Shown one piece after another: positions 13,138 through 55,359 of a stretch of DNA of 64,000 bases; the stretch's first letter is position 1; every line of letters starts with the position of its first letter. The translations under genes were made by a program, and so were the position numbers. Location of the stretch: contig CM067317.1 of the NCBI GenBank assembly GCA_034231615.1, forward strand, positions 48,780,282 to 48,844,281. Reading direction: 5' to 3'. Source of the DNA: Meghimatium bilineatum (Eukaryota; Mollusca; Gastropoda; Stylommatophora; Philomycidae). A model generated the notes under the pieces. It worked only from the letters and a program-made list of their open reading frames with translations, made no database searches and was not told where the DNA came from.

Positions 13138-13699
13138 ATGAACGATAACATACAACATATCGGAAATCAGAAAGGTGTTAAAATAAATTTCACAGGATTA
13201 AAAATAAAATAAAATAATATACATCACATAGAAGATGTTCTCTCCATTTCAGATGTACTCATCATCTCTTTCACGATTTCCTGGAGTGAAAATCTGTAAC
13301 TTTCTGATGTTGCCCTTTCAATTTAATTAGCCTTTGATAAATAACACAAAAGAAAAAAAACATTTTAAGGTTCAGAGCAACTAACGCAAGTGTTACGAGA
13401 TTTCTATTCAATGTACTCTGTAGGTCTTATCAGATCATCATTTTGGTCAATGATAGTATCGCCTAGAGCACATAACTCAGTAACTCAAAGATTTTTTATT
13501 AGGGATTTAGGGGAAAATATTCATATGAATCAGACGTTACAATCTTATTTTGAATAAACAAGCACATGAACTAGTGCACACGGCGTGTGAACACGCTAGG
13601 AAATCCCATTGACCTGGTGTTTCCCTCGTTACACCTGGTTCATAACTTATATTATCTTTACCTTTCACACCTTAGACAGGTGTTAAAAAATGTAAAGTG

Positions 13700-16690
13700 T
13701 AGTGGTGTTCTTATCTAAGCACCTTATTTTATTTAAGAACCTTGTTCTCATCTAACCACCTTATTCTTATCTGAGAACGTTGTTCTTATCAAAGTACCTT
13801 GTTCTTATATGAGCACCTTGTTTTTATCTAAATACCTTGTTCTTATCTAATGACCTTTCTCTTATCTAAGCACTTGTTTCTTATCTAAGCAGCTTCTTCT
13901 TATCTGAGCATCGTGTTCTAATTTGAACACCCTTTTCTTATGTGAACACCTTATTCTTATCTAATCACTTGTTCTTATCTAAGCTGCTTTACCTTATCTA
14001 CGCTGCTCCTTTTTTTATCTAAGAAGCTTTGTTTTATCTAAGCACCTTACTCTTATCTAAGCACCTTACTCTTATCTAAGCACGTTACTGTTATCTAATT
14101 ACATTTGCTATTATCTAAACACCTTGCACTTGCCTAATCACATTATTTTTTATCTAAGCACCTTGTTCTTACGTAAGCACCTTACTCTTATCTAAGCACC
14201 TTGTTATTATCTAAGCACCTTGTTATTATCTAAACACCTTGATCTTATCTAAACTCCTTGATCTTATCTAAACACCTTGATCTTATCTAAGAATCTTGTT
14301 ATTATCTAAGCACATTCCTCTTATTAAAGCACCATGTTCTTATCTAAGCATCTTGTCTTAGAACCGTGTTCTTATCTAAGAGCATTGTTCTTGTCTAAGA
14401 ATGTTGCTATTATCTAAGCACCTTATTCTTATCAAAACACCTTGTTCTTATCAAAACACCTCGTTCTTATCAAAACACCTCTTTCTTATCAAAACACCTT
14501 GTTCTTATCAAAACACCTCGTTCTTATCAAAACACCTTGTTCTTATCAAAACACCTTGTTCTTATCAAAACACCTCGTTCTTATCAAAACACCTTGTTCT
14601 TATCAAAACACCTTGTTCTTATCAAAACACCTTGTTCTTATCAAAGAACCCTGTTCTGGACTAATCCACGTATTCTTGTCTAAGCACGTTCGCATATAAG
14701 CAGTTTGTTCTTATCTAAGCAATTTTTTTTTCTAAGAACCTTGATCTTATCTAAGAACGTTGTTATCTAAACACCATGTTCTTATCTAAGCATTTTGTTC
14801 TTATCTAAGCAACTTGTTCTTCTCTAAGCGCCTTGTAATTAACTACGCACCTTGATCTTATCTAAGAGCCTTGTTTTGATCTACTAACCTTGTTGTTATC
14901 CAAGCTACGTTTTCTTATTTAAGCACAATATTCTTATCTAAGCGTCTTTTTCTTTTGTAAACACATAGTTATGATCTAAGAACCTTGTTGTTATCTAAAC
15001 ACCTTGTTCTTATCTAAGCACATTATTCTAGGCAACTTCTTCTTCTTTAAGAACCATGTTCTTATCAAGCAACCTTGTTCTGGTCTAATCCGCTTATTCT
15101 TATCTAAGCACCGTGTTCTTATCCAAGCAGCTTGTTCTTATCTAAGCAGCTTGTTCTTATCTAAGCAGCTTGTTCTTATCTAAGCACCGTGTTCTTATCC
15201 AAGCAGCTTGTTCTTATATAAGCAGCTTGTTCTTATGTATGCAGCTGTTCTTATCTAAGCAGCTTGTTCTTATCTAAGCAGCTTGTTCTTATCTAAGCAG
15301 CTTGTTCTTATATAAGCAGCTTGTTCTTATGTATGCAGCTGTTCTTATCTAAGCAGCTTGTTCTTATCTAAGCAGCTTGTTCTTATCTAAGAAGCTTGTT
15401 CTTATCTAAGCAGCTTGTTCTTATGAATGCAGCTGTTCTTATCTAAGCAGCTTGTTCTTATCTAAGCAGCTTGTTCTTATCTAAGCAGCTTGTTCTTATC
15501 TAAGCAGCTTGTTCTTATCTAAGCAGCTTGTTCTTATGTATGCAGCTTGTTCTTATCTAAGCAGCTTGTTCTTATCTAAGCAGCTTGTTCTTATCTAAGC
15601 AGCTTGTTCTTATCTAAGCAGCTTGTTCTTATCTAAGCAGCTTGTTCTTATGTATGCAGCTGTTCTTATCTAAGCAGCTTGTTCTTATGTATGCAGCTGT
15701 TCTTATCTAAGCAGCTTGTTCTTATGTATGCAGCTGTTCTTATCTAAGCAGCTTGTTCTTATGTATGCAGCTGTTCTTATCTAAGCAGCATGTTCTTATG
15801 TATGCAGCTGTTCTTATCTAAGCAGCTTGTTCTTATGTATGCAGCTGTTCTTATCTAAGCAGCTTGTTCTTATATAAGCAGCTTGTTCTTATGTATGCAG
15901 CTGTTCTTATCTAAGCAGCTTGTTCTTATCTAAGCAGCTTGTTCTTATATAAGCAGCTTGTTCTTATATAAGCAGCTTGTTCTTATGTATGCAGCTGTTC
16001 TTATCTAAGCAGCTTCTTCTTATCTAAGCATCTTGTTCTTATCTAAGCAGCTTGTTCTTATGTATGCAGCTGTTCTTATCTAAGCAGCTTGTTCTTATCT
16101 AAGCATCTTGTTCTTATATAAGCAGCTTGTTCTTATCTAAGCAGCTTGTTCTTATCTAAGCAGCTTGTTCTTATCTAAGCACCTTGTTCTTATCTAAGCA
16201 GCTTGTTCTTATCTAAGCAGCTTGTTCTTATGTATGCAGCTGTTCTTATCTAAGCAGCTTGTTCTTATGTATGCAGCTGTTCTTATCTAAGCAGCTTGTT
16301 CTTATGTATGCAGCTGTTCTTATCTAAGCAGCTTGTTCTTATCTAAGCAGCTTGTTCTTATGTATGCAGCTGTTCTTATCTAAGCAGCTTGTTCTTATGT
16401 ATGCAGCTGTTCTTATCTAAGCAGCTTGTTCTTATGTATGCAGCTGTTCTTATCTAAGCAGCTTGTTCTTATCTAAGCAGCTTGTTCTTATCTAAGCAGT
16501 TTGTTCTTATCTAAGCAGCTTGTTCTTATCTAAGCAGCTTGTTCTTATCTAAGCAGCTTGTTCTTATGTATGCAGCTGTTCTTATCTAAGCAGCTTGTTC
16601 TTATCTAAGCAGCTTGTTCTTATATAAGTAGCTTGTTCTTATCTAAATAACTTATTTTTTCTAAACAATTTATTCTTATCCCAGCAGCTT
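13700..16690. repeat. ~3-kb minisatellite, 19/18-bp units
   Basis: Dominant unit TTCTTATCTAAGCAGCTTG (19 bp) with an 18-bp variant TTCTTATGTATGCAGCTG. From about 15660 to 16460 the two often alternate as 37-bp dimers. The first kilobase is older and diverged (TTCTTATCTAAGCACCTTG variants); a homogeneous block of TTCTTATCAAAACACCTTG lies at about 14425-14645. Frames of about 85 codons inside that block are translated repeats, not genes. Confidence 0.95.
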
Positions 16691-16779
16691 GGTTTTATCT
16701 ACTATAAATAAAACAGTTTTATCTAATTATCTTATTGTTACTAAGAAAAACAAAAACTAAAATACAAAAGAACTAAACA

Positions 16780-17410
16780 ACTATCTCTCCAGAATTAAAA
16801 CAATTGTTTTCTAATCAACTTTCTCTCCGAACTAAACTATTTTTTACCACCAAAACAAATTCCTTTCCAGAGCTAAAAGATAGTTCTCTCCAGAACTACA
16901 CAGCGTTCTATTTACTATTTACAACATTCGCTCAAGAATTAAACAATGTGTTATCACCTAAATAACTTCCTCCCCACAACTGAATAATTTACTAACACCT
17001 AAATAATTTTTCCTCCAAAACTAAAGAACTTGCTCTCCAGAACTAAACAAGTTACTATCTTCTAAACAACTTTCTCACTATAACAAAACAACTTTCTCTT
17101 CAGAACTAAATAATGTGTTACCACATAAACAACTTACTCTTCAGAATTAAATAATGTGTTACCACATAAACAACTTTCTCTTCAGAATTAAATAATGTGT
17201 TACCATATAAACAACTTTCTCTTCAGAACTAAATAATGTGTTACCACATAAACAACTTTCTCTTCAGAATAAAATAGAGTATTATCATTTAAACAACTTT
17301 CTCTTCATAATGAAATAGAGTATTATCATTTAAACAACTTTCTCACCAGAACTAAACAACTTACTATCACAAACAACTTACTATCACAAACAACTTACTA
17401 TCACAAACAA
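16780..17410. repeat. Related A/T-rich minisatellite, ~41-bp then 15-bp units
   Basis: Units carry AACTAAATAATGTGTTACCA then ACAACTTTCTCTTCAG (clearest at 17085-17340), ending in four copies of AACTTACTATCACAA. Earlier units (16780-17080) are diverged. Confidence 0.85.
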
Positions 17411-17925
17411 CTTACCCACACCTGCAACAACGATGTGCCTCAGCATGAACAAGTACCGCTATCCCGTACCCTTTCTTAACTATTGCTGACAGATCGTTGC
17501 TTGACTACGCAAAGACAAGCCCCCTTCTCCACATCAGTCCCGAACAGTTGACAAGAGTTGCGAGTGAGGCATCCCTGGCACATAACCAGGCTTCATAGAA
17601 TTACTCAGTCGCGTGTGAGTTCTACAATACGGAGTGGGAGAAAAACACAAGGGCGAGCAGTAATTTAACAAAAAATAGATAGTGATTTTGTGGCTTGATA
17701 TGAAGGCGATAGATGGACACTTTGGCGTGGGATTTAGCGGTTTAGTTCAACCAGCGGTGCTCTGAAGAATAACTTAGAAGGCTTTATTTGACAATAGGAT
17801 ATCGTGGGTGGGAAATTATCAGTGTTTGTCAGCGTGGAAAAAATTAAGATATGGAACCTGCTGAAAATGTTGCTTAGATGCATTGGGTTATTGAAAAAAT
17901 GTTTCACAGTTAGCAACTATCTATT
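17411..17925. other. Unassigned stretch (copy at 24379-24893)
   Basis: No gene, repeat family or promoter recognised. The frames 17734-17916 (minus) and 17804-18013 (plus) overlap on opposite strands and match nothing I know. Confidence 0.45.
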
Positions 17926-18180
17926 TGGGGACCCACCTGGTGTAGTGATTAAGCTGTTCGCTTTGCGTTCAAGAGGTCGATGGATAAAATCCCACTCGCC
18001 AGATCTAAAGTGAGCTTTTTTTCGGAGATCAATGCGGACTTATTGCTTGAAGCTACGAAGTTACGTGCTATGAGTGGTACTTTTGTCAGACGGCGTACCG
18101 TTTCGTTAAGAAGGTCGCAGTACATAAAGGGTCAATGGTCAATGCATTTTGAACCCGTTCATCTATCTTTTTATTTTTAA
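17926..18180 (+). mobile_element. tRNA-derived SINE (copy at 24894-25148)
   Basis: tRNA-like head: GGGACCCACCTGGTGTAGTG, ATTAAGCTGTTCG (A box), then a decayed B box GGATAAAATCCC before CACTCGCCAGATCT. The body ends in a T/A-rich tail near 18170. Two of the seven differences between the duplication units (17980-17981) fall here, just before the B box. Confidence 0.65.
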
Positions 18181-18491
18181 AACCTACAGTATGCCATGTC
18201 AAAAGCAAACAGTTTTAACACTTTATATATGTCAAGTATTCTAGAACAAGTGAGACACTTCGCTGAACAAAATTCAAGGAATATATGACTATGGGTCTCA
18301 ACACCACGCAAGAATTACAAACAGTAGCATCACATCGTTGGAAATGGAGAGCTCTTGCTTCTGTCCTATGCACCGTATTCGGCGCTGAAGGAATATAGAT
18401 TCTTGTCTTGCAATTATATATAGAAGTTGGTCATGGTAGCTTCCATGGAAGCACACTGCTGTCGGGGATGAAGATAACTCCTCATTAAATA
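18181..18491. other. Unassigned; possible LINE 3' relic at 18260-18400
   Basis: The plus strand at about 18280-18400 reads YMTMGLNTTQELQTVASHRW then KWRALASVL, loosely like the A.DR..WR end of LINE proteins. The match is weak. Copy at 25149-25459. Confidence 0.3.
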
Positions 18492-18690
18492 ATCAACAGC
18501 AACTATTAGGTGGGATAGCCAGTTCCCTTCCTTGCTGTCTTTACCTCCCTAACTCATAAGGCAGGTATCCATTTACGGCTGGGTCGAATGGAGGAGCGGT
18601 CGTGTCAAGCGAAAAATCACGACCCGTACTTGGTTTCGAGCTTCACACGCTGTAACTCTGGTAGTAGGCAAGCTCACTGTCAACAAGCCT
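18492..18690 (-). mobile_element. tRNA-derived SINE with central domain (copy at 25460-25658)
   Basis: Minus-strand relative of 11615-11830: GAGCTTGCCTACTACCAGAG, GGGTCGTGATTTTTCGC, TTCGACCCAGCCGTAAATGG, GAGTTAGGGAGGTAAAGACA, ACCTAATAGTTGCTG. Two of the differences between the duplication units lie in or beside it (18481, 18599). Confidence 0.7.
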
Positions 18691-18699
18691 ACCATTTTT

Positions 18700-19584
18700 C
18701 TCTAGTTGGTTGATTGCTTATCACGCGGTCCATGGGCTCATGTACTTTGAACCAATGCCATTGTATGATATATGCATGTGTTTGTTGTTAGCTGTTGTTT
18801 TGTTCCATATAATGTGTTCCATTTATCTGGCACTGGAGAGAGAAACATTTTCCAGATGTCATCCAGAGCTAGGCATTCAAAAAGGTGGTGGTCAACAGTT
18901 TCATATGGATGAGTGCACAGCCAGCACTCTGGATTGTGTGTTGTGGTTGTGTTATGTTCAGGTGATTGTTGATCTGTACATGTTATGTGCGCAGTCTGAT
19001 GATGCTCTGGTCTTTCCTTACCAGGAGATTGATGTTGTCTTTAGGATATGGGCTGGTCATATATTTATAGATTTACCTCCAGTGTTTCCCATGGCCCATC
19101 TGTTCATCCAATTTTCTTTTGTCACATATTTCAGCATCATTTTAATTGTGTACATTGTTGTTTATGTATATGGCTGTTCTTGTTGAGCTCCCATCTTTGC
19201 TAGTCTCTCTGCCTTGTCATTGCCATGTGTGTTTGAGTGGCCAGGAATCCACTGCATAACGATGCTGACTTCATAAGATGTAAGCAGCTGGTTGGCATGG
19301 TGATATATTTCCACCAGCTCAGGATGACAGTGTCCATCACATTCTAGTACTTGAAGAGCGGACAAAGAGTCTGGGACAATCACGATGTTTTGAACTTTTG
19401 ATAGAAAGGCATCAAATATGGACTTCATGTGGTACAAGGCAACATCTAGTGCTGTTATTTCAGTTTCATAGTTAGAACATATCTCCCCACAAGCATCAAA
19501 CAACTCATCAGATGTTTTGTCTGGATATTCTATATAGACACCATAACCTGCTTTAATGGTGGCTTTAAAATCACACCCATCAGT
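18700..19584 (-). pseudogene. LINE RNase H and C-terminal region, unit 1
   Basis: Decayed 3' end of a non-LTR retrotransposon protein. Reading the minus strand: TDGC (first RNase H Asp, about 19570), AGYGVYIEYP, NYETEITALDVAL (Glu), VIVPDSLSALQVLE (Asp), MQWIPGHSNTHGNDKAERLA (final His/Asp), all inside the open frame 19162-19593. Downstream (18720-19160) a stop-ridden continuation keeps QSIIRLRTHN and the cysteine/histidine knuckle region. It resembles residues about 700-950 of the full-length element at 51281-55359 but is a different family. It stops abruptly at TDGC because of the composite insertion. The plus-strand frame 18710-19186 is its antisense shadow. Confidence 0.85.
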
Positions 19585-20349
19585 GGGGTGCAAAGGGAAC
19601 GCATTGCACTAGGCGGACCCAGGGCTAGCAGATAACCAAGATCCCAAATGTACCTCCACGCGGTGCACCCTGGAAACAGAAATACAGCAGCTCAAGCTGA
19701 TTCTAGCCAAATCATTTGGGGATCGTGTCCGAGAATGTGGAGGTAGCAAATGGAAAGAGATTTGACTGCACAAGAGACAAACAATATCTCCGACACCACC
19801 AGCATCACCACATATATCGACACTGTCGACATACAGTGAAGCTAGTCAGTTCAGTCCAAACATTGGAGGGGCGGCCAATGTAAAATGCACGTAAAGGTAG
19901 ATGCATGGCGAGAGACAAATAGATTTCATACCGAGTACAATGAAATAATGAAAGGGCAGAACAGCGCTAGAGGGCAGCGAGAACTGCAAATAGAAAGTGA
20001 AAAGTCCCTAGGAAAGGGGAACTACAAGCTCCGTCAGCTCGAGACGAGCTTCTAGTTACCTGTGTTCCATACAGGCAGAGACCCAGACCCATTCATTGGC
20101 GTTTGGTAAAACAAGAAGACCTAATCCAACTCTAATGTCGAGCCTTCCTAAACTGGAAATATGCTCGCGAAAGGGTTCCGTACCCGATGGGCTCAGGCAC
20201 AAAAGGGACAACGATGGTAGTCCTGGCCCAACTCTACTGTCAGGTTTTCCTACACCGGAAATACACTTGAAGAGAGAAAGGGTTCAGTACCTGATGGGCT
20301 CAAACGCTATTGGGACAAGGACGCTCAGCTCGAGAACGCCCTGCTCTCA
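19585..20349 (+). mobile_element. Composite insertion, left part only (cut by duplication)
   Basis: Identical by eye to 26553-27317. It stops at the duplication junction, so this copy lacks the third ~110-bp repeat, the SINE-like 3' part and the right-hand TSD. The plus frame 20096-20524 crosses the junction into unit 2 and has no recognised product. Confidence 0.85.
19967..19978 (+). promoter_or_regulatory. CTCF-like motif (copy at 26935-26946)
   Basis: CTAGAGGGCAGC fits the 12-base 3' portion of the animal CTCF core consensus, but the preceding CCA is not conserved. Because it lies in an inserted element, it would be a carried-in site. Chance occurrence cannot be excluded. Confidence 0.25.
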
Positions 20350-20667
20350 AACGCAAGTGTTACGAGATTTCTATTCAATGTACTCTGTAGGTCTTATCAG
20401 ATCATCATTTTGGTCAATGATAGTATCGCCTAGAGCACATAACTCAGTAACTCAAAGATTTTTTATTAGGGATTTAGGGGAAAATATTCATATGAATCAG
20501 ACGTTACAATCTTATTTTGAATAAACAAGCACATGAACTAGTGCACACGGCGTGTGAACACGCTAGGAAATCCCATTGACCTGGTGTTTCCCTCGTTACA
20601 CCTGGTTCATAACTTATATTATCTTTACCTTTCACACCTTAGACAGGTGTTAAAAAATGTAAAGTGT

Positions 20668-23657
20668 AGTGGTGTTCTTATCTAAGCACCTTATTTTATT
20701 TAAGAACCTTGTTCTCATCTAACCACCTTATTCTTATCTGAGAACGTTGTTCTTATCAAAGTACCTTGTTCTTATATGAGCACCTTGTTTTTATCTAAAT
20801 ACCTTGTTCTTATCTAATGACCTTTCTCTTATCTAAGCACTTGTTTCTTATCTAAGCAGCTTCTTCTTATCTGAGCATCGTGTTCTAATTTGAACACCCT
20901 TTTCTTATGTGAACACCTTATTCTTATCTAATCACTTGTTCTTATCTAAGCTGCTTTACCTTATCTACGCTGCTCCTTTTTTTATCTAAGAAGCTTTGTT
21001 TTATCTAAGCACCTTACTCTTATCTAAGCACCTTACTCTTATCTAAGCACGTTACTGTTATCTAATTACATTTGCTATTATCTAAACACCTTGCACTTGC
21101 CTAATCACATTATTTTTTTATCTAAGCACCTTGTTCTTACGTAAGCACCTTACTCTTATCTAAGCACCTTGTTATTATCTAAGCACCTTGTTATTATCTA
21201 AACACCTTGATCTTATCTAAACTCCTTGATCTTATCTAAACACCTTGATCTTATCTAAGAATCTTGTTATTATCTAAGCACATTCCTCTTATTAAAGCAC
21301 CATGTTCTTATCTAAGCATCTTGTCTTAGAACCGTGTTCTTATCTAAGAGCATTGTTCTTGTCTAAGAATGTTGCTATTATCTAAGCACCTTATTCTTAT
21401 CAAAACACCTTGTTCTTATCAAAACACCTCGTTCTTATCAAAACACCTCTTTCTTATCAAAACACCTTGTTCTTATCAAAACACCTCGTTCTTATCAAAA
21501 CACCTTGTTCTTATCAAAACACCTTGTTCTTATCAAAACACCTCGTTCTTATCAAAACACCTTGTTCTTATCAAAACACCTTGTTCTTATCAAAACACCT
21601 TGTTCTTATCAAAGAACCCTGTTCTGGACTAATCCACGTATTCTTGTCTAAGCACGTTCGCATATAAGCAGTTTGTTCTTATCTAAGCAATTTTTTTTTC
21701 TAAGAACCTTGATCTTATCTAAGAACGTTGTTATCTAAACACCATGTTCTTATCTAAGCATTTTGTTCTTATCTAAGCAACTTGTTCTTCTCTAAGCGCC
21801 TTGTAATTAACTACGCACCTTGATCTTATCTAAGAGCCTTGTTTTGATCTACTAACCTTGTTGTTATCCAAGCTACGTTTTCTTATTTAAGCACAATATT
21901 CTTATCTAAGCGTCTTTTTCTTTTGTAAACACATAGTTATGATCTAAGAACCTTGTTGTTATCTAAACACCTTGTTCTTATCTAAGCACATTATTCTAGG
22001 CAACTTCTTCTTCTTTAAGAACCATGTTCTTATCAAGCAACCTTGTTCTGGTCTAATCCGCTTATTCTTATCTAAGCACCGTGTTCTTATCCAAGCAGCT
22101 TGTTCTTATCTAAGCAGCTTGTTCTTATCTAAGCAGCTTGTTCTTATCTAAGCACCGTGTTCTTATCCAAGCAGCTTGTTCTTATATAAGCAGCTTGTTC
22201 TTATGTATGCAGCTGTTCTTATCTAAGCAGCTTGTTCTTATCTAAGCAGCTTGTTCTTATCTAAGCAGCTTGTTCTTATATAAGCAGCTTGTTCTTATGT
22301 ATGCAGCTGTTCTTATCTAAGCAGCTTGTTCTTATCTAAGCAGCTTGTTCTTATCTAAGAAGCTTGTTCTTATCTAAGCAGCTTGTTCTTATGAATGCAG
22401 CTGTTCTTATCTAAGCAGCTTGTTCTTATCTAAGCAGCTTGTTCTTATCTAAGCAGCTTGTTCTTATCTAAGCAGCTTGTTCTTATCTAAGCAGCTTGTT
22501 CTTATGTATGCAGCTTGTTCTTATCTAAGCAGCTTGTTCTTATCTAAGCAGCTTGTTCTTATCTAAGCAGCTTGTTCTTATCTAAGCAGCTTGTTCTTAT
22601 CTAAGCAGCTTGTTCTTATGTATGCAGCTGTTCTTATCTAAGCAGCTTGTTCTTATGTATGCAGCTGTTCTTATCTAAGCAGCTTGTTCTTATGTATGCA
22701 GCTGTTCTTATCTAAGCAGCTTGTTCTTATGTATGCAGCTGTTCTTATCTAAGCAGCATGTTCTTATGTATGCAGCTGTTCTTATCTAAGCAGCTTGTTC
22801 TTATGTATGCAGCTGTTCTTATCTAAGCAGCTTGTTCTTATCTAAGCAGCTTGTTCTTATGTATGCAGCTGTTCTTATCTAAGCAGCTTGTTCTTATCTA
22901 AGCAGCTTGTTCTTATATAAGCAGCTTGTTCTTATATAAGCAGCTTGTTCTTATGTATGCAGCTGTTCTTATCTAAGCAGCTTCTTCTTATCTAAGCATC
23001 TTGTTCTTATCTAAGCAGCTTGTTCTTATGTATGCAGCTGTTCTTATCTAAGCAGCTTGTTCTTATCTAAGCATCTTGTTCTTATATAAGCAGCTTGTTC
23101 TTATCTAAGCAGCTTGTTCTTATCTAAGCAGCTTGTTCTTATCTAAGCACCTTGTTCTTATCTAAGCAGCTTGTTCTTATCTAAGCAGCTTGTTCTTATG
23201 TATGCAGCTGTTCTTATCTAAGCAGCTTGTTCTTATGTATGCAGCTGTTCTTATCTAAGCAGCTTGTTCTTATGTATGCAGCTGTTCTTATCTAAGCAGC
23301 TTGTTCTTATCTAAGCAGCTTGTTCTTATGTATGCAGCTGTTCTTATCTAAGCAGCTTGTTCTTATGTATGCAGCTGTTCTTATCTAAGCAGCTTGTTCT
23401 TATGTATGCAGCTGTTCTTATCTAAGCAGCTTGTTCTTATCTAAGCAGCTTGTTCTTATCTAAGCAGTTTGTTCTTATCTAAGCAGCTTGTTCTTATCTA
23501 AGCAGCTTGTTCTTATCTAAGCAGCTTGTTCTTATGTATGCAGCTGTTCTTATCTAAGCAGCTTGTTCTTATCTAAGCAGCTTGTTCTTATATAAGTAGC
23601 TTGTTCTTATCTAAATAACTTATTTTTTCTAAACAATTTATTCTTATCCCAGCAGCT
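20668..23657. repeat. ~3-kb minisatellite, 19/18-bp units, second copy
   Basis: Same unit order as 13700-16690, with one visible substitution (22842, C instead of A). The preserved order of variant units shows duplication of a finished array, not independent growth. Confidence 0.95.
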
Positions 23658-23747
23658 TGGTTTTATCTACTATAAATAAAACAGTTTTATCTAATTATCT
23701 TATTGTTACTAAGAAAAACAAAAACTAAAATACAAAAGAACTAAACA

Positions 23748-24378
23748 ACTATCTCTCCAGAATTAAAACAATTGTTTTCTAATCAACTTTCTCTCCGAAC
23801 TAAACTATTTTTTACCACCAAAACAAATTCCTTTCCAGAGCTAAAAGATAGTTCTCTCCAGAACTACACAGCGTTCTATTTACTATTTACAACATTCGCT
23901 CAAGAATTAAACAATGTGTTATCACCTAAATAACTTCCTCCCCACAACTGAATAATTTACTAACACCTAAATAATTTTTCCTCCAAAACTAAAGAACTTG
24001 CTCTCCAGAACTAAACAAGTTACTATCTTCTAAACAACTTTCTCACTATAACAAAACAACTTTCTCTTCAGAACTAAATAATGTGTTACCACATAAACAA
24101 CTTACTCTTCAGAATTAAATAATGTGTTACCACATAAACAACTTTCTCTTCAGAATTAAATAATGTGTTACCATATAAACAACTTTCTCTTCAGAACTAA
24201 ATAATGTGTTACCACATAAACAACTTTCTCTTCAGAATAAAATAGAGTATTATCATTTAAACAACTTTCTCTTCATAATGAAATAGAGTATTATCATTTA
24301 AACAACTTTCTCACCAGAACTAAACAACTTACTATCACAAACAACTTACTATCACAAACAACTTACTATCACAAACAA
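23748..24378. repeat. A/T-rich 41-bp and 15-bp minisatellite, second copy
   Basis: Duplicate of 16780-17410 with no difference that I noticed. Confidence 0.85.
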
Positions 24379-24893
24379 CTTACCCACACCTGCAACAACG
24401 ATGTGCCTCAGCATGAACAAGTACCGCTATCCCGTACCCTTTCTTAACTATTGCTGACAGATCGTTGCTTGACTACGCAAAGACAAGCCCCCTTCTCCAC
24501 ATCAGTCCCGAACAGTTGACAAGAGTTGCGAGTGAGGCATCCCTGGCACATAACCAGGCATCATAGAATTACTCAGTCGCGTGTGAGTTCTACAATACGG
24601 AGTGGGAGAAAAACACAAGGGCGAGCAGTAATTTAACAAAAAATAGATAGTGATTTTGTGGCTTGATATGAAGGCGATAGATGGACACTTTGGCGTGGGA
24701 TTTAGCGGTTTAGTTCAACCAGCGGTGCTCTGAAGAATAACTTAGAAGGCTTTATTTGACAATAGGATATCGTGGGTGGGAAATTATCAGTGTTTGTCAG
24801 CGTGGAAAAAATTAAGATATGGAACCTGCTGAAAATGTTGCTTAGATGCATTGGGTTATTGAAAAAATGTTTCACAGTTAGCAACTATCTATT
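24379..24893. other. Unassigned stretch, second copy
   Basis: Duplicate of 17411-17925, with an A instead of T at 24560. Confidence 0.45.
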
Positions 24894-25148
24894 TGGGGAC
24901 CCACCTGGTGTAGTGATTAAGCTGTTCGCTTTGCGTTCAAGAGGTCGCCGGATAAAATCCCACTCGCCAGATCTAAAGTGAGCTTTTTTTCGGAGATCAA
25001 TGCGGACTTATTGCTTGAAGCTACGAAGTTACGTGCTATGAGTGGTACTTTTGTCAGACGGCGTACCGTTTCGTTAAGAAGGTCGCAGTACATAAAGGGT
25101 CAATGGTCAATGCATTTTGAACCCGTTCATCTATCTTTTTATTTTTAA
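24894..25148 (+). mobile_element. tRNA-derived SINE, second copy
   Basis: Duplicate of 17926-18180. It reads GGTCGCCGGATAAAATCCC, with CC at 24948-24949 where unit 1 has AT. GGTCGCCGG looks like the more ancestral form because it fits a tRNA variable loop/B-box junction better. Confidence 0.65.
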
Positions 25149-25459
25149 AACCTACAGTATGCCATGTCAAAAGCAAACAGTTTTAACACTTTATATATGT
25201 CAAGTATTCTAGAACAAGTGAGACACTTCGCTGAACAAAATTCAAGGAATATATGACTATGGGTCTCAACACCACGCAAGAATTACAAACAGTAGCATCA
25301 CATCGTTGGAAATGGAGAGCTCTTGCTTCTGTCCTATGCACCGTATTCGGCGCTGAAGGAATATAGATTCTTGTCTTGCAATTATATATAGAAGTTGGTC
25401 ATGGTAGCTTCCATGGAAGCACACTGCTGTCGGGGATGAAGATAACTCTTCATTAAATA
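25149..25459. other. Unassigned; possible LINE 3' relic, second copy
   Basis: Duplicate of 18181-18491, with T instead of C at 25449. Confidence 0.3.
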
Positions 25460-25658
25460 ATCAACAGCAACTATTAGGTGGGATAGCCAGTTCCCTTCCT
25501 TGCTGTCTTTACCTCCCTAACTCATAAGGCAGGTATCCATTTACGGCTGGGTCGAATGGAGGAGCGATCGTGTCAAGCGAAAAATCACGACCCGTACTTG
25601 GTTTCGAGCTTCACACGCTGTAACTCTGGTAGTAGGCAAGCTCACTGTCAACAAGCCT
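25460..25658 (-). mobile_element. tRNA-derived SINE with central domain, second copy
   Basis: Duplicate of 18492-18690; A instead of G at 25567. Confidence 0.7.
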
Positions 25659-25667
25659 ACCATTTTT

Positions 25668-26552
25668 CTCTAGTTGGTTGATTGCTTATCACGCGGTCCA
25701 TGGGCTCATGTACTTTGAACCAATGCCATTGTATGATATATGCATGTGTTTGTTGTTAGCTGTTGTTTTGTTCCATATAATGTGTTCCATTTATCTGGCA
25801 CTGGAGAGAGAAACATTTTCCAGATGTCATCCAGAGCTAGGCATTCAAAAAGGTGGTGGTCAACAGTTTCATATGGATGAGTGCACAGCCAGCACTCTGG
25901 ATTGTGTGTTGTGGTTGTGTTATGTTCAGGTGATTGTTGATCTGTACATGTTATGTGCGCAGTCTGATGATGCTCTGGTCTTTCCTTACCAGGAGATTGA
26001 TGTTGTCTTTAGGATATGGGCTGGTCATATATTTATAGATTTACCTCCAGTGTTTCCCATGGCCCATCTGTTCATCCAATTTTCTTTTGTCACATATTTC
26101 AGCATCATTTTAATTGTGTACATTGTTGTTTATGTATATGGCTGTTCTTGTTGAGCTCCCATCTTTGCTAGTCTCTCTGCCTTGTCATTGCCATGTGTGT
26201 TTGAGTGGCCAGGAATCCACTGCATAACGATGCTGACTTCATAAGATGTAAGCAGCTGGTTGGCATGGTGATATATTTCCACCAGCTCAGGATGACAGTG
26301 TCCATCACATTCTAGTACTTGAAGAGCGGACAAAGAGTCTGGGACAATCACGATGTTTTGAACTTTTGATAGAAAGGCATCAAATATGGACTTCATGTGG
26401 TACAAGGCAACATCTAGTGCTGTTATTTCAGTTTCATAGTTAGAACATATCTCCCCACAAGCATCAAACAACTCATCAGATGTTTTGTCTGGATATTCTA
26501 TATAGACACCATAACCTGCTTTAATGGTGGCTTTAAAATCACACCCATCAGT
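25668..26552 (-). pseudogene. LINE RNase H and C-terminal region, 3' half of a split gene
   Basis: Same sequence as 18700-19584. The minus strand begins at TDGC and continues DFKATIKAGYGVYIEYP. The upstream half of the same reading frame is at 27772-28650, ending QWIHVYTDGC. Joining the two at the shared 12-bp repeat (26541-26552 and 27772-27783) restores one continuous frame, so they were one gene before the 1,219-bp insertion at 26553-27771. The knuckle region downstream is degraded. Confidence 0.85.
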
Positions 26553-27783
26553 GGGGTGCAAAGGGAACGCATTGCACTAGGCGGACCCAGGGCTAGCAGA
26601 TAACCAAGATCCCAAATGTACCTCCACGCGGTGCACCCTGGAAACAGAAATACAGCAGCTCAAGCTGATTCTAGCCAAATCATTTGGGGATCGTGTCCGA
26701 GAATGTGGAGGTAGCAAATGGAAAGAGATTTGACTGCACAAGAGACAAACAATATCTCCGACACCACCAGCATCACCACATATATCGACACTGTCGACAT
26801 ACAGTGAAGCTAGTCAGTTCAGTCCAAACATTGGAGGGGCGGCCAATGTAAAATGCACGTAAAGGTAGATGCATGGCGAGAGACAAATAGATTTCATACC
26901 GAGTACAATGAAATAATGAAAGGGCAGAACAGCGCTAGAGGGCAGCGAGAACTGCAAATAGAAAGTGAAAAGTCCCTAGGAAAGGGGAACTACAAGCTCC
27001 GTCAGCTCGAGACGAGCTTCTAGTTACCTGTGTTCCATACAGGCAGAGACCCAGACCCATTCATTGGCGTTTGGTAAAACAAGAAGACCTAATCCAACTC
27101 TAATGTCGAGCCTTCCTAAACTGGAAATATGCTCGCGAAAGGGTTCCGTACCCGATGGGCTCAGGCACAAAAGGGACAACGATGGTAGTCCTGGCCCAAC
27201 TCTACTGTCAGGTTTTCCTACACCGGAAATACACTTGAAGAGAGAAAGGGTTCAGTACCTGATGGGCTCAAACGCTATTGGGACAAGGACGCTCAGCTCG
27301 AGAACGCCCTGCTCTCAAACGCGTGGTGTGAGACTCGAACTTGGACAAGGGGTATACGATGTCGGTGAATGACACCTCGGCTAAGATTGCGAAAGAGCCA
27401 GGGTCCAACTCCTCTGTTGAGTTCTTCCCCTTAAGAAACCAGGCTCACGGATGAGAAACGGTTCAGTACCCAATGGGCACAGCACGTCCAATTACACGAG
27501 GCAAGTTCATAGACAGTGGAACATCTCGTGCGAGTCAGACGAGAGCAAAAATCGTCTGGGCGAAGAGTCGCCACTACGCGTGCCTGGAGACAGATATAGA
27601 GGCTGTCACAGGCTAATGGTAGCCCACCCGAATTGTCAAGGCATGCCGAAATCGGATGTGCTAGGCCTACAAGGCGCATAACGGTGGCACAAGGTAATCA
27701 CGCTCCCGGCGGAAATCGCACAGATATCTGTGATGGTTACAATGGAGCGAACGCAAAACAAACACCCATCAGTATAGACATGA
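26541..27783 (+). mobile_element. 1,219-bp composite retroposon-like insertion with 12-bp TSD
   Basis: ACACCCATCAGT occurs at 26541-26552 and 27772-27783 and brackets 26553-27771. A 12-bp TSD and an A-rich right end (GCAAAACAA) suggest target-primed insertion in plus orientation. Inside: a unique 5' part of about 500 bp, a CTCF-like motif, three diverged ~110-bp repeats (about 27078-27185, 27186-27300, 27400-27510) marked by GGTTC(C/A)GTACC(C/T)GATGGG, and a 3' part (27636-27735) resembling the local SINE (GCCGAAATCGGATGTG). There is no long open frame with a recognised domain, so it is non-autonomous. I know no family with this structure. Confidence 0.75.
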
Positions 27784-43910: not shown

Positions 43911-44913
43911 TGTTTACAACGTCAGTGGTAACAATGTATATAATATTCGCTATTCATAAAGCTCAGTTAACGCAGACAATGTCTTGCATCATTCATCACA
44001 CACATCACTACTATTCACAATAAGCGTCCCAAGTTATTTTTAACTCCCCCTCACTGATAAATTGACTCAAAATATCAGATATCACTATATCTATGGGATG
44101 TCCCAAAGCATGTACCTAACGATGTCCAATTGTTCGAGAATCAACACCCACGCATCCTTAAGTATTACTTCCCGGACGTTCTGCTGTCTGTCTCTCTTCT
44201 TTCCCTCATATTCTAGAAACGGCAGTGAGCGATTTAGTTAGATCGAATGTTTTTTCCCAATTCTTGTATAGTTTGATCAACTCCCCCGCACAACCATATC
44301 GCGCGCTGTAAATAGATTTTGTTGCTAGAGGCCAGGACATATATAAAACGCGAAGTGACGAGTGGCCGATGAAGCATTCCTGTCGTGCTGAAATCGCATA
44401 TTAGTTTCCACGTCAAACTTGATGTCAAGGGATACTTCAATCATTATGTTCTGTCCCTCCGACATTGATATTTATAAACGTCTGGAAACGTTCAAATAAC
44501 TGAAATGAGCAATCTTTTAAACTATGACCAATATGTCTACCGATATTGATAAATATTGTTGTGACTTTCAAGACGTGGTAGTCGGGAGTAAAGTGGTTAG
44601 AACTCGTGCCATACGATACTGACAATATTTTTCTGTTGTTGTTGGCTGAATTCCTCGGAATGGCAGTGAACATGACGCTGGCAGTGAACTTGTCTCGTAT
44701 AATTAGACGTATTGTGCCTGTGTCCGTCGGATTCTTAAACGTTTCTCATGCGCGAGCATGAATCTGGTATAGGAAACACTCGGCAGTAGAGTTGGGATTA
44801 GGTTCGTTCGTCCTGTTAGTCGAGGTGTCATTCTCCAACATTGTGAACCGCTCGTCCAAGTCTGAGATTCTACACATGTTTCGGAGCACTGGTATTAGAA
44901 GATTTTTCTCGAA
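43911..44913. other. Unassigned; possible orphan minus-strand exon
   Basis: On the minus strand, 44236 down to 44010 is open and reads NVREVILKDAWVLILEQLDI and then VRYMLWDIP, amphipathic and helix-like, after a splice-acceptor-like GCCGTTTCTAG. Frames 44437-44673 and 44746-45009 (minus) are also open but in other phases. I recognise no family, so this is only a candidate host exon. Confidence 0.25.
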
Positions 44914-45209
44914 CTTCTTCTTCTTCTTCGTTCTTCCCCTTTTTTCTTCGTTCTCAAACTCCAGCAGATTAGCAGGATGTAGTCCGGAGAACGGAATGCG
45001 TTGTGCCATGGTTTACAGCATTGCTGCGATATCTGCGCTTTCGTCCTGATACATCCCACTTCAGCATGGTTTTGGGTCACTGACCCTATATGGGATGAGA
45101 CAGCCAACTCCATCCCATAGCCTCCTTAGTCGCCTTTTACGACATGCGTGGAAGGTAAGCAGTGTTGCTATTCTTTGCTGCCCTTTCAGACGCCGGCAAC
45201 ACACTGGCG
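44914..45209 (-). mobile_element. SINE, long form, well preserved
   Basis: Minus-strand copy with a (CTT)n tail at 44914-44929. Order of blocks: CGTTCTCAAACTCCAGCAG, AGTCCGGAGAACGGAATGCG, GGGTCACTGACCCTATATGG, TCCTTAGTCGCCTTTTACGA, CAGTGTTGCTATTCTTTGC, GGCAACACACTGGCG. Flanks share TTCTCGA, a possible decayed TSD. Open frames in it on both strands (for example 44746-45009 and 44792-45049) are spurious. Confidence 0.85.
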
Positions 45210-45434
45210 ATTCTCGAGCTGAACACTACTTTAGTTCCGATTTTCCTAAAACGTTTTCCCGTTCTATTTGCACATGACGGTGCTCTCTCGTTGTATTTCA
45301 AAGGCTATCCTTAAGTAGACTGGCGCACGACTCTCGAATTTGTGACGACATCTATGTTTTTCGAGACAAATTAATTTGCCGCCATTCCAATACACCTACG
45401 TTTCTGCTGTCCCTACCAGCATGTCTTGCACTAC

Positions 45435-45665
45435 TGTGTGTCGACGTGTCACTGTGTGTCGACATGTCACTGTGTGTCGACGTGTTGCTGTGTGTCAACG
45501 TGTCGCTGTGTGTCGACGTGTCGCTGTGTGTCGCCGTGTCCTTGTGTGACGACGTGTCACTGTGTGTGTGTCGACGTGTCATTGTGTGACGACGTGTCAC
45601 TGTGTGTGTGTCGACGTGTCACTGTGTGTCGACATGTCACTGTGTGTCAACGTGTTGCTGTAAGG
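45435..45665. repeat. Minisatellite, 18-bp unit
   Basis: Unit CGACGTGTCACTGTGTGT with variants (CAACGTGTTGC, CGCCGTGTCC). Largely alternating purine/pyrimidine. 18 bp is six codons, hence the cysteine/histidine-rich 137-codon plus frame (45426-45839), not a zinc-finger gene. Confidence 0.92.
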
Positions 45666-45849
45666 GTTGGCGCAGAAACGTTGGAAATATTTTTTTTATT
45701 TTTTTGCAGTCAGTTCTCATTATGTCTACAGCCTCCACAATCACGGACTCTATCCTCAAAAGTGTTGGCCAGAAACAGCACGAGCCGCTGTATTTCTATT
45801 TCCAGAGTGCTCCACGAGATGGTACTTTTAGGATCTTAGTTATCTGCTA

Positions 45850-46000
45850 ACCCTGGGACCGAATGAGAGCAATGCCGTACCCTTTGCACCATATCCGAGG
45901 CAGTTACAAGGCCTCACCTCCTCAAGTTTATACCCATTCATTATGATGTTAGTCTGTGCTTCTCTCTCTGTTGTTAACAAAGACTTTAATCTTTTCTGTG
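45850..46000 (-). mobile_element. Possible LINE fragment after the YADD region
   Basis: The minus strand reads SLLTTEREAQTNIIMNGYKL then EEVRPCNCLG, similar to the LINE segment ending G.KLEEV..F.YLG. Short and isolated; it abuts an oppositely oriented LINE. Confidence 0.35.
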
Positions 46001-47854: not shown

Positions 47855-48945
47855 AATATAGTCACAGCAAGGCCTTTGACAGAGTCCAACATGAAAAATT
47901 AATCAAATGTCTTCAAGAAATAGGCATTAGATGGAAAAGACATCAGGCTGATTAGAAATATATATTGGGAACATACTGCATCAATAAGGTGTGAAAACAG
48001 CTACTCTCCATACATAGAAATAAGAAGAGGGGTAAGACAAGGATGCATTTTATCACCAAGCCTATTTAATATCTACACAGAGAATATCTTTAAAAATATA
48101 GAAGAAATACCAGGACTCAAGATCAATGGGAAAATAATAAACAACATTAGATATGCAGATGACACTGTTCTTTTAGCAGAAAGTGAACATGAACTACAAA
48201 GACTAATAGATCAAGTCAATAAATCAAGTAATGAATATGGACTGGATATAAACATTCAAAAAACAAAAACCATGATAATCAGCAAAGACACAGAAGAACA
48301 GGAGGTAAACATAAACATACAGGGAGAGAAACTACAACAAGTAAAACAGTATCAATATCTTAGACACATAGTCACAAATGATGGCAGATGTGAAACAGAA
48401 GTTAAAAGGAGAATAGGAATGGCTAAAAGTATCTTCAATGACATGAGGAAATTATTAACATCTAAACAAATGACAAACAAGTTAAAAATGAGAATTATAA
48501 AATGCTACATCTATTCCATATTAATGTGTGGCTCAGAAACATGGACACTAAATAAACAATTAGAAGACAAAATTGATGCCTTTGAGATGTGGGTATATAG
48601 AAGAATAGGGAGAACATCATGGAAAGAGAAGAAAACAAATAAATAGGTGCTAAAGAGACTTAATATGAAGAAAGAACTTCTAAGAGAAATCAAGATCAGG
48701 CAAATAAAATACTTTGGACACATTAAAAGACATGACACCCTATTGAAGACCTTACTTGAAGGTAAAGTCAAAGGGAAGCGAGCAAGAGGTAGGCAGAGAT
48801 ACAAGTGGGAGAGTAACATTACACGATGGACAGGTTACAGTCTAGCAGAGTGCACCACCAAGACAAGAGGCAGGAGATGTTGGAGATACGTTGCAGCCAA
48901 CCTTCGTTTTGGAGACGGCACTTGATGATGATGAATATAGTCACA
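47855..48945 (+). mobile_element. 5'-truncated LINE with 12-bp TSD
   Basis: AATATAGTCACA at 47855-47866 and 48934-48945 flanks 1,067 bp that begins at the RT motif KAFDRVQHEKL and ends in TGATGATGATG. Further motifs: EIRRGVRQGCILSPSLFNIY, NNIRYADDTVLLAESEHELQ (intact YADD), YLRHIVTNDGRCETEVKRRI, ILMCGSETWTLNKQLEDKID, RQIKYFGHIKRHD and GKRARGRQRYKW. Only two lesions: one extra A near 47935 and a TAG at 48644-48646 between two frames in the same phase (48272-48646 and 48647-48925). Truncation at the RT core makes it dead on arrival. It landed in another LINE (48946-49127). Confidence 0.9.
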
Positions 48946-51215: not shown

Positions 51216-51460
51216 ACAAATTTACCTTAATTTTATATGACAATCAATACAAGGTAATTGTGTGAAACGTAACAACAATTAGACTAACGTACCCCATCGA
51301 GGCCAGAACCTTGAAGTGGTGATGGGGCTTAGTTCAGCCATCAGAGGCTGGAAACTAAGACTGGTCGGGCACTCCCACTCGAGCAGGACCATAGTCCGGC
51401 CCAAGTAAGCAGAGTGCTGAAGACGGAGGCAACCAGCCAAAAGGCGCACAGATAATCAGG

Positions 51461-52689
51461 ATGCCACGCATAAAACACAATGGAAACATGTCTGCATCTA
51501 ATAAATGTTATGGTGCCTGCCCTGTGGCGGACGTTCAGGCAGGGACGGTGCCGGGCCCTATACCTCGAAAGGGCCCAACCTCAGTTACTGGAAGTCCTTC
51601 TCAATTGCCCCGAGGAGCCAGGAGGCAAGGGAATAGAGCTACTGGCCAAACAAACAGACGACCAATAAAAATAATGCACTGGAATGCTGAGGGTGTCAAC
51701 AGTAAAAGAGATGGATACAGCAAAAAATTGGAACTTGAAAATGTCCTCAGTGAAGAACAAGTTAATATTTGCTGTATCCAAGAAACACACCTCAGCAGCG
51801 ACATAGCCTTCAAAATCAGAGGCTACCAGTGCTACCGATCTGACCGAAAAGACAGGCGAAAGGGTGGAATTCTGACACTAGTTAAAAACAATATCAGCGC
51901 ATGTCAGCTGGAAGTATACATGGACGGGGCAGAATACCAGATGCTCCACATAAAAACAGACAGTGCAGAATTCCATCTCCTGAACTACTACTGCCCAAAT
52001 GATAAACCATTGGCACTAGACACAATTCCAGATAAAGAAAGGCTTATGGTGTGTGGTGACTTCAACAGCCACTCTCAGAGCTGGGGCTACGATCATATCG
52101 ACAAGAGAGGTGAGGAACTTGAGAGCTGGCAGGATGAAAATAATCTCATTCTTATTAACCAGCCAGCTGACTCACCAACCTTCTACTCGAGAGCATGGCA
52201 CACCACCTCTACACCAGACCTGGCATTCTACTCACCAGGCCTGGAATGGAACATCACACGTGTCGTTGGAAAGCAGCTTGGGGGTAGTGACCACAGACCA
52301 GTATTTCTGGAAATTCACAATGAATATACCAAGGACAGCAGCACGCTCACTAGGTGGAACTATAAGAGGGCAGACTGGAAAATGTACCAGTATTTAACCA
52401 GTGTTCTAGCTAAGGACATGAACTTGGACAAAGACATCAATAGAGCAGTGAGTGAATTTAATAGATGTATACTACATGCTGCTAGTAAAACCATACCCAG
52501 GGGGGCACGCAAAAACTACAAACCCTACTGGAATGATGAACTGGAAAAGCTGCAAAATGAGATGGAAACATCTAGACAGCAGGCTGAGAACAGACCTAGC
52601 CAAGAACATCACAACAAATATCAGCAAACAAAGGCTAAATTTCAAAGAGCCAAGTTACAAGCCAGACGGAGCAGCTGGAAAGAAAAAAA
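51461..52689 (+). CDS. LINE polyprotein, N-terminal part: AP-like endonuclease
   Basis: Encodes the target-nicking endonuclease that starts retroposition. The frame is open from ATG 51461 to a stop at 52718-52720, but sense is lost after 52689. Residues 1-66 are a basic, low-complexity leader. The endonuclease spans about 67-285: HWNAEGVNSK (N75), IQETHL (E108), VCGDFNSHSQSWGY (D200, N202), STPDLAF (D253), GGSDHRP (D277, H278). These are the expected acid/base and metal ligands of the exonuclease-endonuclease-phosphatase fold, and none looks mutated. Residues about 290-415 are a linker (PYWNDELEKLQ, a long charged helix) leading to RT. At the A7 run (52683-52689) one A too many moves the ribosome out of frame. 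The start is the first ATG after the UTR; a shorter start is possible. Confidence 0.85.
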
Positions 52690-55313: not shown

Positions 55314-55359
55314 ACATGTTTCAAGTGAACGAAAGAAGAAGAAGAAGAAGACTAACGTA

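Follow-up and report, generated by a model that had tools for sequence, protein, structure and literature searches.

The stretch of DNA analysed here, hereafter the window, comprises 64,000 nucleotides of the Meghimatium bilineatum genome (positions 48,780,282–48,844,281 of contig CM067317.1, assembly GCA_034231615.1). In it, the coding sequence of a LINE is broken by an insert of about 1.2 kb, which raises the question of whether the insert is an accidental assemblage of repeats or a mobile element and, if the latter, how it moves. A sequence-only reading had taken it for a possible new large composite SINE lying in a LINE and flanked by a 12-bp target-site duplication (TSD).

Structure of the interrupted locus

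The interruption of the LINE was borne out. Its minus-strand frame reads QWIHVYTDGC up to one edge of the insert and TDGCDFKA from the other, and the part that resumes after the insert was identified as RNase H by Pfam comparison (PF00075, E = 3.8e-08). The 12-bp direct repeat, ACACCCATCAGT, was likewise found on both sides, its two occurrences in the window being spaced 1,221 bp apart. The extent originally given to the insert (26553–27771, 1,219 bp) wrongly included 10 bases of the TSD, and the corrected boundaries are as follows.

26541–26552 (strand not applicable): left TSD ACACCCATCAGT, from direct-repeat comparison
26553–27761 (+, sense): the element, a non-autonomous retroelement of 1,209 bp, both ends of which recur in genome copies
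27762–27773 (strand not applicable): right TSD ACACCCATCAGT, corrected coordinates, from direct-repeat comparison
19585–20354 (+): initial 770 bp of this insertion in a second, duplicated occurrence, from the tandem-duplication alignment

The last of these features belongs to a tandem duplication that the earlier account of the insert had overlooked. Segments 13383–20354 and 20350–27322 repeat with a period of 6,967 bp and are 99.9% identical (6 mismatches and 1 gap over 6,973 alignment columns), and the window consequently carries two copies each of the LINE, of the left TSD and of the element's initial 770 bp. The junction lies inside the element, where AACGC is common to both segments as a 5-bp microhomology. 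Since 19585–20354 is part of this duplication, we rejected its interpretation as a truncated independent copy or a second transposition. The duplication (13383–27322) is either recent or an artefact of assembly. A long array of short, diverged TTATCTAAGCACCTTGTTC-type units was also observed within the duplicated segment, at 13706–16701 and again at 20673–23669.

The element belongs to a high-copy mobile family

The assembly from which the window was taken (1.61 Gb in 32 contigs) was searched with the insert, and 40 genome matches, including the window copy, were scored out of 5,734 first-look candidates, in a search that ranks long matches. Matches of most other copies stopped near position 1212 because the insert query included the 10 bases of the right TSD. 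The same 5′ start was found in 38 of the 40 scored copies (GGGGTGC in 37 and GGGATGC in one), the two others, L019 and L035, beginning at nt 83 and nt 3. A separate class of copies that seemed to begin near nt 140 proved to be an artefact of alignment cutting, as the fetched places start at nt 1, bar L019 and L035. An exact TSD of at least 8 bp flanked 34 of the 40 copies, compared with 3 of 1,560 swapped-flank control pairs; thus, the full-length copies with their own TSDs that the sequence-only reading had proposed to look for do exist. Among the 34 copies with an exact TSD, its sequence varied, its length was 11–13 bp in 28, and it abutted nt 1 without an extra base in 30. At the target site, position −2 was T in 26 of these copies, position −1 was T or C in 31, and position +1 was A in 23. 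Visual inspection showed AAAC-type tails, variable in length, in 39 of 40 copies; the row of the remaining copy, L035, runs into a second, partial copy located about 240 bp downstream and not arranged head to tail. Copies diverged from the column majority by 1.6–2.8% (21 rows).

Exact counts gave 7,372 occurrences of the 5′-end 26-mer in the genome and 7,808 of the 3′-end 28-mer in its two variants (3,077 and 4,731), with no occurrence of the reversed control patterns. An apparent excess of exact 5′ over 3′ ends disappeared when the second 3′ variant was counted. Pairing of the two ends was measured at 100 listed exact 5′ ends, which cover the first 28.4 Mb of contig C1. For 63 of them an exact 3′ end lay no more than 3 kb away on the same strand. 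Of the 63 lengths so obtained, 60 fell into two classes, 1,192–1,246 bp (21 copies) and 1,301–1,339 bp (39 copies), the step of about 105 bp between them corresponding to one internal repeat. The discordant ends, or parts found only separately, by which the sequence-only reading would have recognized a mosaic were not encountered. The insert is therefore a copy of a genuine high-copy mobile family and not a chance mosaic.

As a check for bias, copies were also chosen by their 3′ end alone. Of the 40 places obtained in this manner, 28, including the window copy, were examined, and 12 lay outside the examined sample (one of these, L038, belongs to the 40 scored copies). The 5′ end was located at nt 1–3 in 25 of the 28. 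The other three were 5′-truncated, at nt 662, 848 and 942, with the 3′ end and tail intact; those truncated at nt 662 and 942 had clear TSDs, and the one at nt 848 was without a clear TSD. Truncation at the 5′ end with an intact tail points to target-primed reverse transcription (TPRT), an interpretation that draws on established knowledge of non-LTR elements.

One young copy, L015, is inserted into an old, diverged member of its own family (72.5% identity over nt 1–340 and 68.8% over nt 640–1017).

A predicted HDV-like ribozyme at the 5′ end

The 5′ part of the insert, previously described merely as unique, is better read as a predicted HDV-like ribozyme with the following parts.

26553–26692 (+): predicted HDV-like ribozyme (element nt 1–140), with predicted cleavage just 5′ of 26553, from Rfam, a hand-drawn structure and a descriptor
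26553–26559 (+): P1 5′ strand GGGGTGC, partner 26633–26639, first pair G-U, from the alignment structure
26608–26618 (+): P2 5′ strand, partner 26681–26692, one bulged base, from the alignment structure
26620–26632 (+): P3 (26620–26622 with 26630–26632) and its 7-nt loop L3, TCCACGC, from the Rfam core and alignment
26624–26625 with 26640–26641 (+): P1.1, CC with GG, from the Rfam core and alignment
26645–26673 (+): P4 hairpin, from the alignment structure
26675 (+): predicted catalytic C (element nt 123) in J4/2, from the alignment

The single Rfam match of this kind in the insert was a sub-threshold one on the sense strand, to drz-agam-1 (RF01787), with 22.6 bits against a cut-off of 37. In the covariance alignment, drz-agam-1 has the same P2/P3/L3/J4-2 layout as the element, and the core recognized consists of P3, the 7-nt L3, the seven nucleotides after P3 and J4/2. 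The element thus resembles the drz-agam-1 type in its core but has a much longer J1/2, as a result of which the model misplaces the 5′ strand of P1. When the core is placed as drz-agam-1 prescribes, the required P1 partner is element nt 1–7, with G-U as the first pair.

The structure was drawn by hand, and a descriptor of the HDV layout, based on the general architecture of that ribozyme, was written, both after the sequence had been seen. The structure was evaluated on an alignment of 43 sequences, which comprised 30 old relatives and 13 young full-length copies, namely that of the window and 12 of the 37 others. In this alignment, 91.7% of 1,367 cells pair in the drawn structure, compared with 31.6–49.4% when it is slid by 1–3 columns, and the predicted catalytic C is C in 42 of the 43 sequences. 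One P2 pair is AU in 29 sequences and UA in 14, and broken in none; in P1, no pair is altered on both sides. The covariation score was reached by 1 of 500 shuffles, while the number of two-sided pair changes, four, was reached by 447 of 500 shuffles and ranged from 4 to 10 in the slid versions. Covariation support for the structure is thus modest. On both strands of the window, the descriptor matched only at 26553 and at the duplicate, 19585, and it matched nowhere in 200 simulated windows. Among young copies it matched 23 of 38, in each case at nt 1, and among old relatives 4 of 30 (15 and 26, respectively, failed), whereas 113,686 strand-bases of flank and 73,594 of interior gave no match. 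The minimum-free-energy fold of nt 1–148, obtained by a method that ignores pseudoknots, lacks the drawn structure and is not exceptional, with a z-score of 0.13 and 104 of 200 shuffles as stable.

Rfam scans of further copies gave HDV-family matches of 16.9–24.3 bits for 9 of 17 sources, several of which hold the ribozyme only in part, and one match of 27.8 bits among 20 old relatives; over this range (16.9–27.8 bits) the HDV-family cut-off of 37 was never reached and nothing attained the gathering threshold. Unrelated families, matching by chance, outscored the HDV-like matches in the same permissive scans. A genome-wide Rfam family search, whose control was positive in none of the 14 genomes, gave no match at E ≤ 0.01.

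Since P1 of the predicted ribozyme starts exactly at nt 1, the 5′ end of the element RNA is probably made by self-cleavage. This is the manner in which R2 and L1Tc/NARTc RNAs obtain their 5′ ends according to the accounts in PMC3774820 and PMC4035085. For our element, the structure and its position make cleavage by the ribozyme the most likely origin of that end.

The internal body is non-coding and contains repeats

The body between the ribozyme and the 3′ end contains the following features.

26932–26946 (+): CTCF-like motif GCGCTAGAGGGCAGC, 2 mismatches from the CTCF consensus
27085–27182 (+): internal repeat unit 1, from self-comparison
27187–27289 (+): internal repeat unit 2, from self-comparison
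27455–27500 (+): third repeat, partial and diverged, from self-comparison

The element is non-coding: in the column majority of 38 copies, no stop-to-stop frame exceeds 87 aa, and the longest frame of the window copy (130 aa), the only internal frame compared, had no Pfam match. Three repeats of about 110 bp had been reported. Two of them are clear units, 102–107 bp apart and 73% identical over 94 bp, and the third is reduced to 46 nt; identity to the reference copy is 61% for this partial repeat and 80% for the second. The CTCF-like motif is present as had been stated (here, as for the A and B boxes below, the common consensus words served for comparison). Its conservation in young copies is scarcely above that of the remainder, with a divergence of 2.3% compared with 2.6% elsewhere. 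Of the 30 old relatives, 17 align over the motif, and in these its 15 columns are 83% identical, compared with 78.5% for the flanks.

The 3′ end and a candidate helper LINE

The A-rich end noted in the sequence-only reading corresponds to the beginning of an (AAAC)n-type tail. The features relevant to the 3′ end are the following.

27732–27761 (+): conserved 3′ end GATGGTTACAATGGAGCGAACGCAAAACAA with the start of the (AAAC)n-type tail, from genome copies and exact 3′-end counts
51292–55348 (51281–55359 with TSDs): full-length LINE with endonuclease, reverse transcriptase and RNase H, ending in a (GAA)n tail

The 3′ end was recognized in 11 of the 30 old relatives, which by eye carried GCAGAA-type words (5), AAC-type tails (4) or no tail (2). 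Terminal words resembling GAACGCAGAAGAAG occur in some old relatives and in other SINE-like repeats. The RNase H LINE at 51292–55348 ends in GTGAACGAAAGAAGAAG and has an 11-bp TSD, AGACTAACGTA, at a TT|A site. With 131 scored matches at 99–100% identity, many of them retaining an open frame of about 1,305 aa, it appears to be very active in this genome. Alignment of its 3′ end with those of young elements did not score above shuffles (1,808 of 2,000 scored as high), the similarity being confined to the final few bases, and a pattern that joins a guessed LINE-type end to AAAAC had no match in the genome. The tail words and the TSD nevertheless hint weakly that the RNase H-bearing group of LINEs may supply the helper. 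An HDV-like double pseudoknot can be fitted to the first 75 nt of this LINE; no catalytic C is evident in it, and the 5′ end gave no Rfam match up to E 5.

A second LINE, presumably of an RTE-like clade, was observed at 47924–48646 of the window and at G000:C9:2253483-2254235; it has open frames of 1,026 aa and the 3′ end GATGATGATGA, and is very active. It gained no support as a candidate helper, its 3′ end differing from that of the element.

Proposed mode of mobilization

Non-LTR elements need a means of giving their RNA a full 5′ end wherever they are inserted. As a whole, the observations lead us to propose, with a probability of about 0.7, that 26553–27761 is a copy of a high-copy retroelement of about 1.2–1.3 kb that is mobilized through TPRT by proteins borrowed from a LINE and owes its 5′ end to an HDV-like ribozyme. 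The fixed ends, TSDs, tail and 5′ truncations are direct observations on the family; the remaining steps would be as follows. LINE machinery acting in trans would nick the target at (T)(T/C)|A sites, and reverse transcription would be primed on the tail, GAACG(C/A)AAAAC(AAAC)n. The predicted ribozyme, about the first 140 nt, would free the element RNA from an upstream co-transcript by cutting before nt 1, and completion of the insertion would leave a TSD, mostly of 11–13 bp.

In this family, whose dispersed 5′ ends number in the thousands, the boundary of the element coincides with the predicted cleavage site, and this coincidence makes the idea of ribozyme processing, developed for R2 and the trypanosomatid elements, testable in an abundant dispersed family. 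If they are active, the thousands of ribozymes might in addition cleave host transcripts in whose introns or UTRs they lie.

Relation to known elements and alternative origins

The element works like a SIDE (short internally deleted element) or NARTc in that it is non-autonomous and has a ribozyme, here a predicted one, at its 5′ end. As described in PMC4035085 and PMC3414825, trypanosomatid NARTc/RIME and the R2 SIDEs are derived from LINEs, having lost the coding region and kept the 5′ ribozyme and the 3′ end. The anatomy of both ends is the same in our element, and the R2 and R2/R1 SIDEs of Drosophila additionally share with it the non-coding body, the LINE-type 3′ end and TPRT (PMC3414825). 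The hybrid R2/R1 SIDEs have TSDs of 14 bp in that account. HDV-like ribozymes are moreover reported from LINEs of several clades (PMC3774820). A special case of our proposal is accordingly that the element is itself a SIDE, that is, a LINE that has lost its coding region but retained its ribozyme and 3′ end. None of ten sampled 5′ ends, all lacking an exact first-variant 3′ end, proved to be that of a LINE: nine continue into the same body, seven of these with a 3′ end in the fetched stretch, and the tenth looks like a copy interrupted by a further insertion. This differs from NARTc/RIME/SIDER, whose Pr77 hallmark is common to the L1Tc/ingi LINEs (PMC4035085). The absence of a Pfam match for the longest frame and the repeats of about 105 bp, which are not LINE-like, also argue against such a derivation, although the parent LINE may be extinct or unsampled. 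SIDEs further differ in that they sit in 28S rDNA and depend on co-transcription with rRNA (PMC3414825), whereas our element is dispersed in thousands of copies and has internal repeats. We regard a SIDE origin as conceivable, at somewhat worse than even odds.

An equally tentative possibility is that the family forms a separate SINE-like class, in which an HDV-like ribozyme head replaces the Pol III promoter, and is not the product of a deletion in a known LINE. The genome would then contain several thousand potentially active ribozymes, each of them beside a CTCF-like site and repeats of about 105 bp. The tails differ between subfamilies, being of the GAA type in some and of the AAAC type in others, which suggests that they may have used different helper LINEs. 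The metazoan non-LTR retrozymes, which could count as a SINE family according to PMC7761336, are comparable as small, non-autonomous elements with self-cleaving ribozymes, the ribozyme being a prediction in our case. In that account, however, they have hammerhead ribozymes and RNA circles, and no hammerhead was found in our Rfam scans of the element. Among the papers listed in the literature searches, none was seen to describe a dispersed animal family with an HDV-like ribozyme head; one may still be in print.

It is unlikely, in our judgment, that the element is an ordinary SINE or other LINE-mobilized element with a classical internal promoter, transcribed from nt 1 onwards, in which the HDV-like pairing would be fortuitous. 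It is true that SINEs likewise have uniform 5′ ends, TSDs and A-rich tails. In R2, species in which cleavage falls at the 5′ end of the element itself show variable 5′ junctions, as described in PMC3774820, while the junction here is clean in 30 of 34 copies. Against this, ARAGORN found no tRNA in the insert, and Rfam found no tRNA, 5S or 7SL match up to E 5; words resembling the A and B boxes, the best with 2 mismatches each, are merely scattered over both strands. As regards its head, the element therefore does not fit a SINE in the strict sense, which has a Pol III head (tRNA, 5S or 7SL, with A and B boxes). Furthermore, diverged relatives retain pairing of the ribozyme-like core, and the descriptor matches at nt 1 only. 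The earlier proposal of a composite SINE thus stands insofar as the family is mobile and has fixed ends, TSDs of its own and a tail rich in A, but neither a Pol III-type head nor, for the 3′ part that had been called SINE-like, a tRNA was found.

A non-autonomous DNA transposon without terminal inverted repeats would account for the fixed ends and the narrow range of TSD lengths; this reading, which we consider very improbable, was rejected on the lack of inverted repeats at the element ends in self-comparison and on the truncated copies, whose intact 3′ tails and TSDs are, like the variable AAAC tails, hallmarks of TPRT. Although some parts of the insert (repeats and 3′ words) also occur elsewhere, and the tandem duplication ends inside it, a chance mosaic or duplication artefact has a negligible probability and was rejected on the shared ends and TSDs of the 40 copies, the thousands of exact 5′ and 3′ ends and the two classes of distance between them.

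Old relatives and other repeats in the window

The window also contains an old member of the family.

44685–45892 (−): old diverged relative, 77% identical over nt 3–210 and 69% over nt 787–957

Ribozyme model R1 matches this relative at 45736–45892 with 173 bits. Inside it lies a CGACACACAGTGACACGT minisatellite at 45650–45440 (minus strand), apparently grown from a short motif that is single in the young element.

Other SINE-like repeats with (GAA)n tails are located at 336 (plus strand) and 37718 (minus strand), and a similar one is nested at about 45180–44915 (minus strand). Those at 336 and 37718 gave no ribozyme-model match up to E 1. They end in GAGTTTGAGAA(C/T)GAACGC, followed by GAA-type tails. 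Their terminal GAACGC(A/T)GAAGAAG resembles that of some older relatives of the element, but the sequence preceding this terminal word differs from that of the element.
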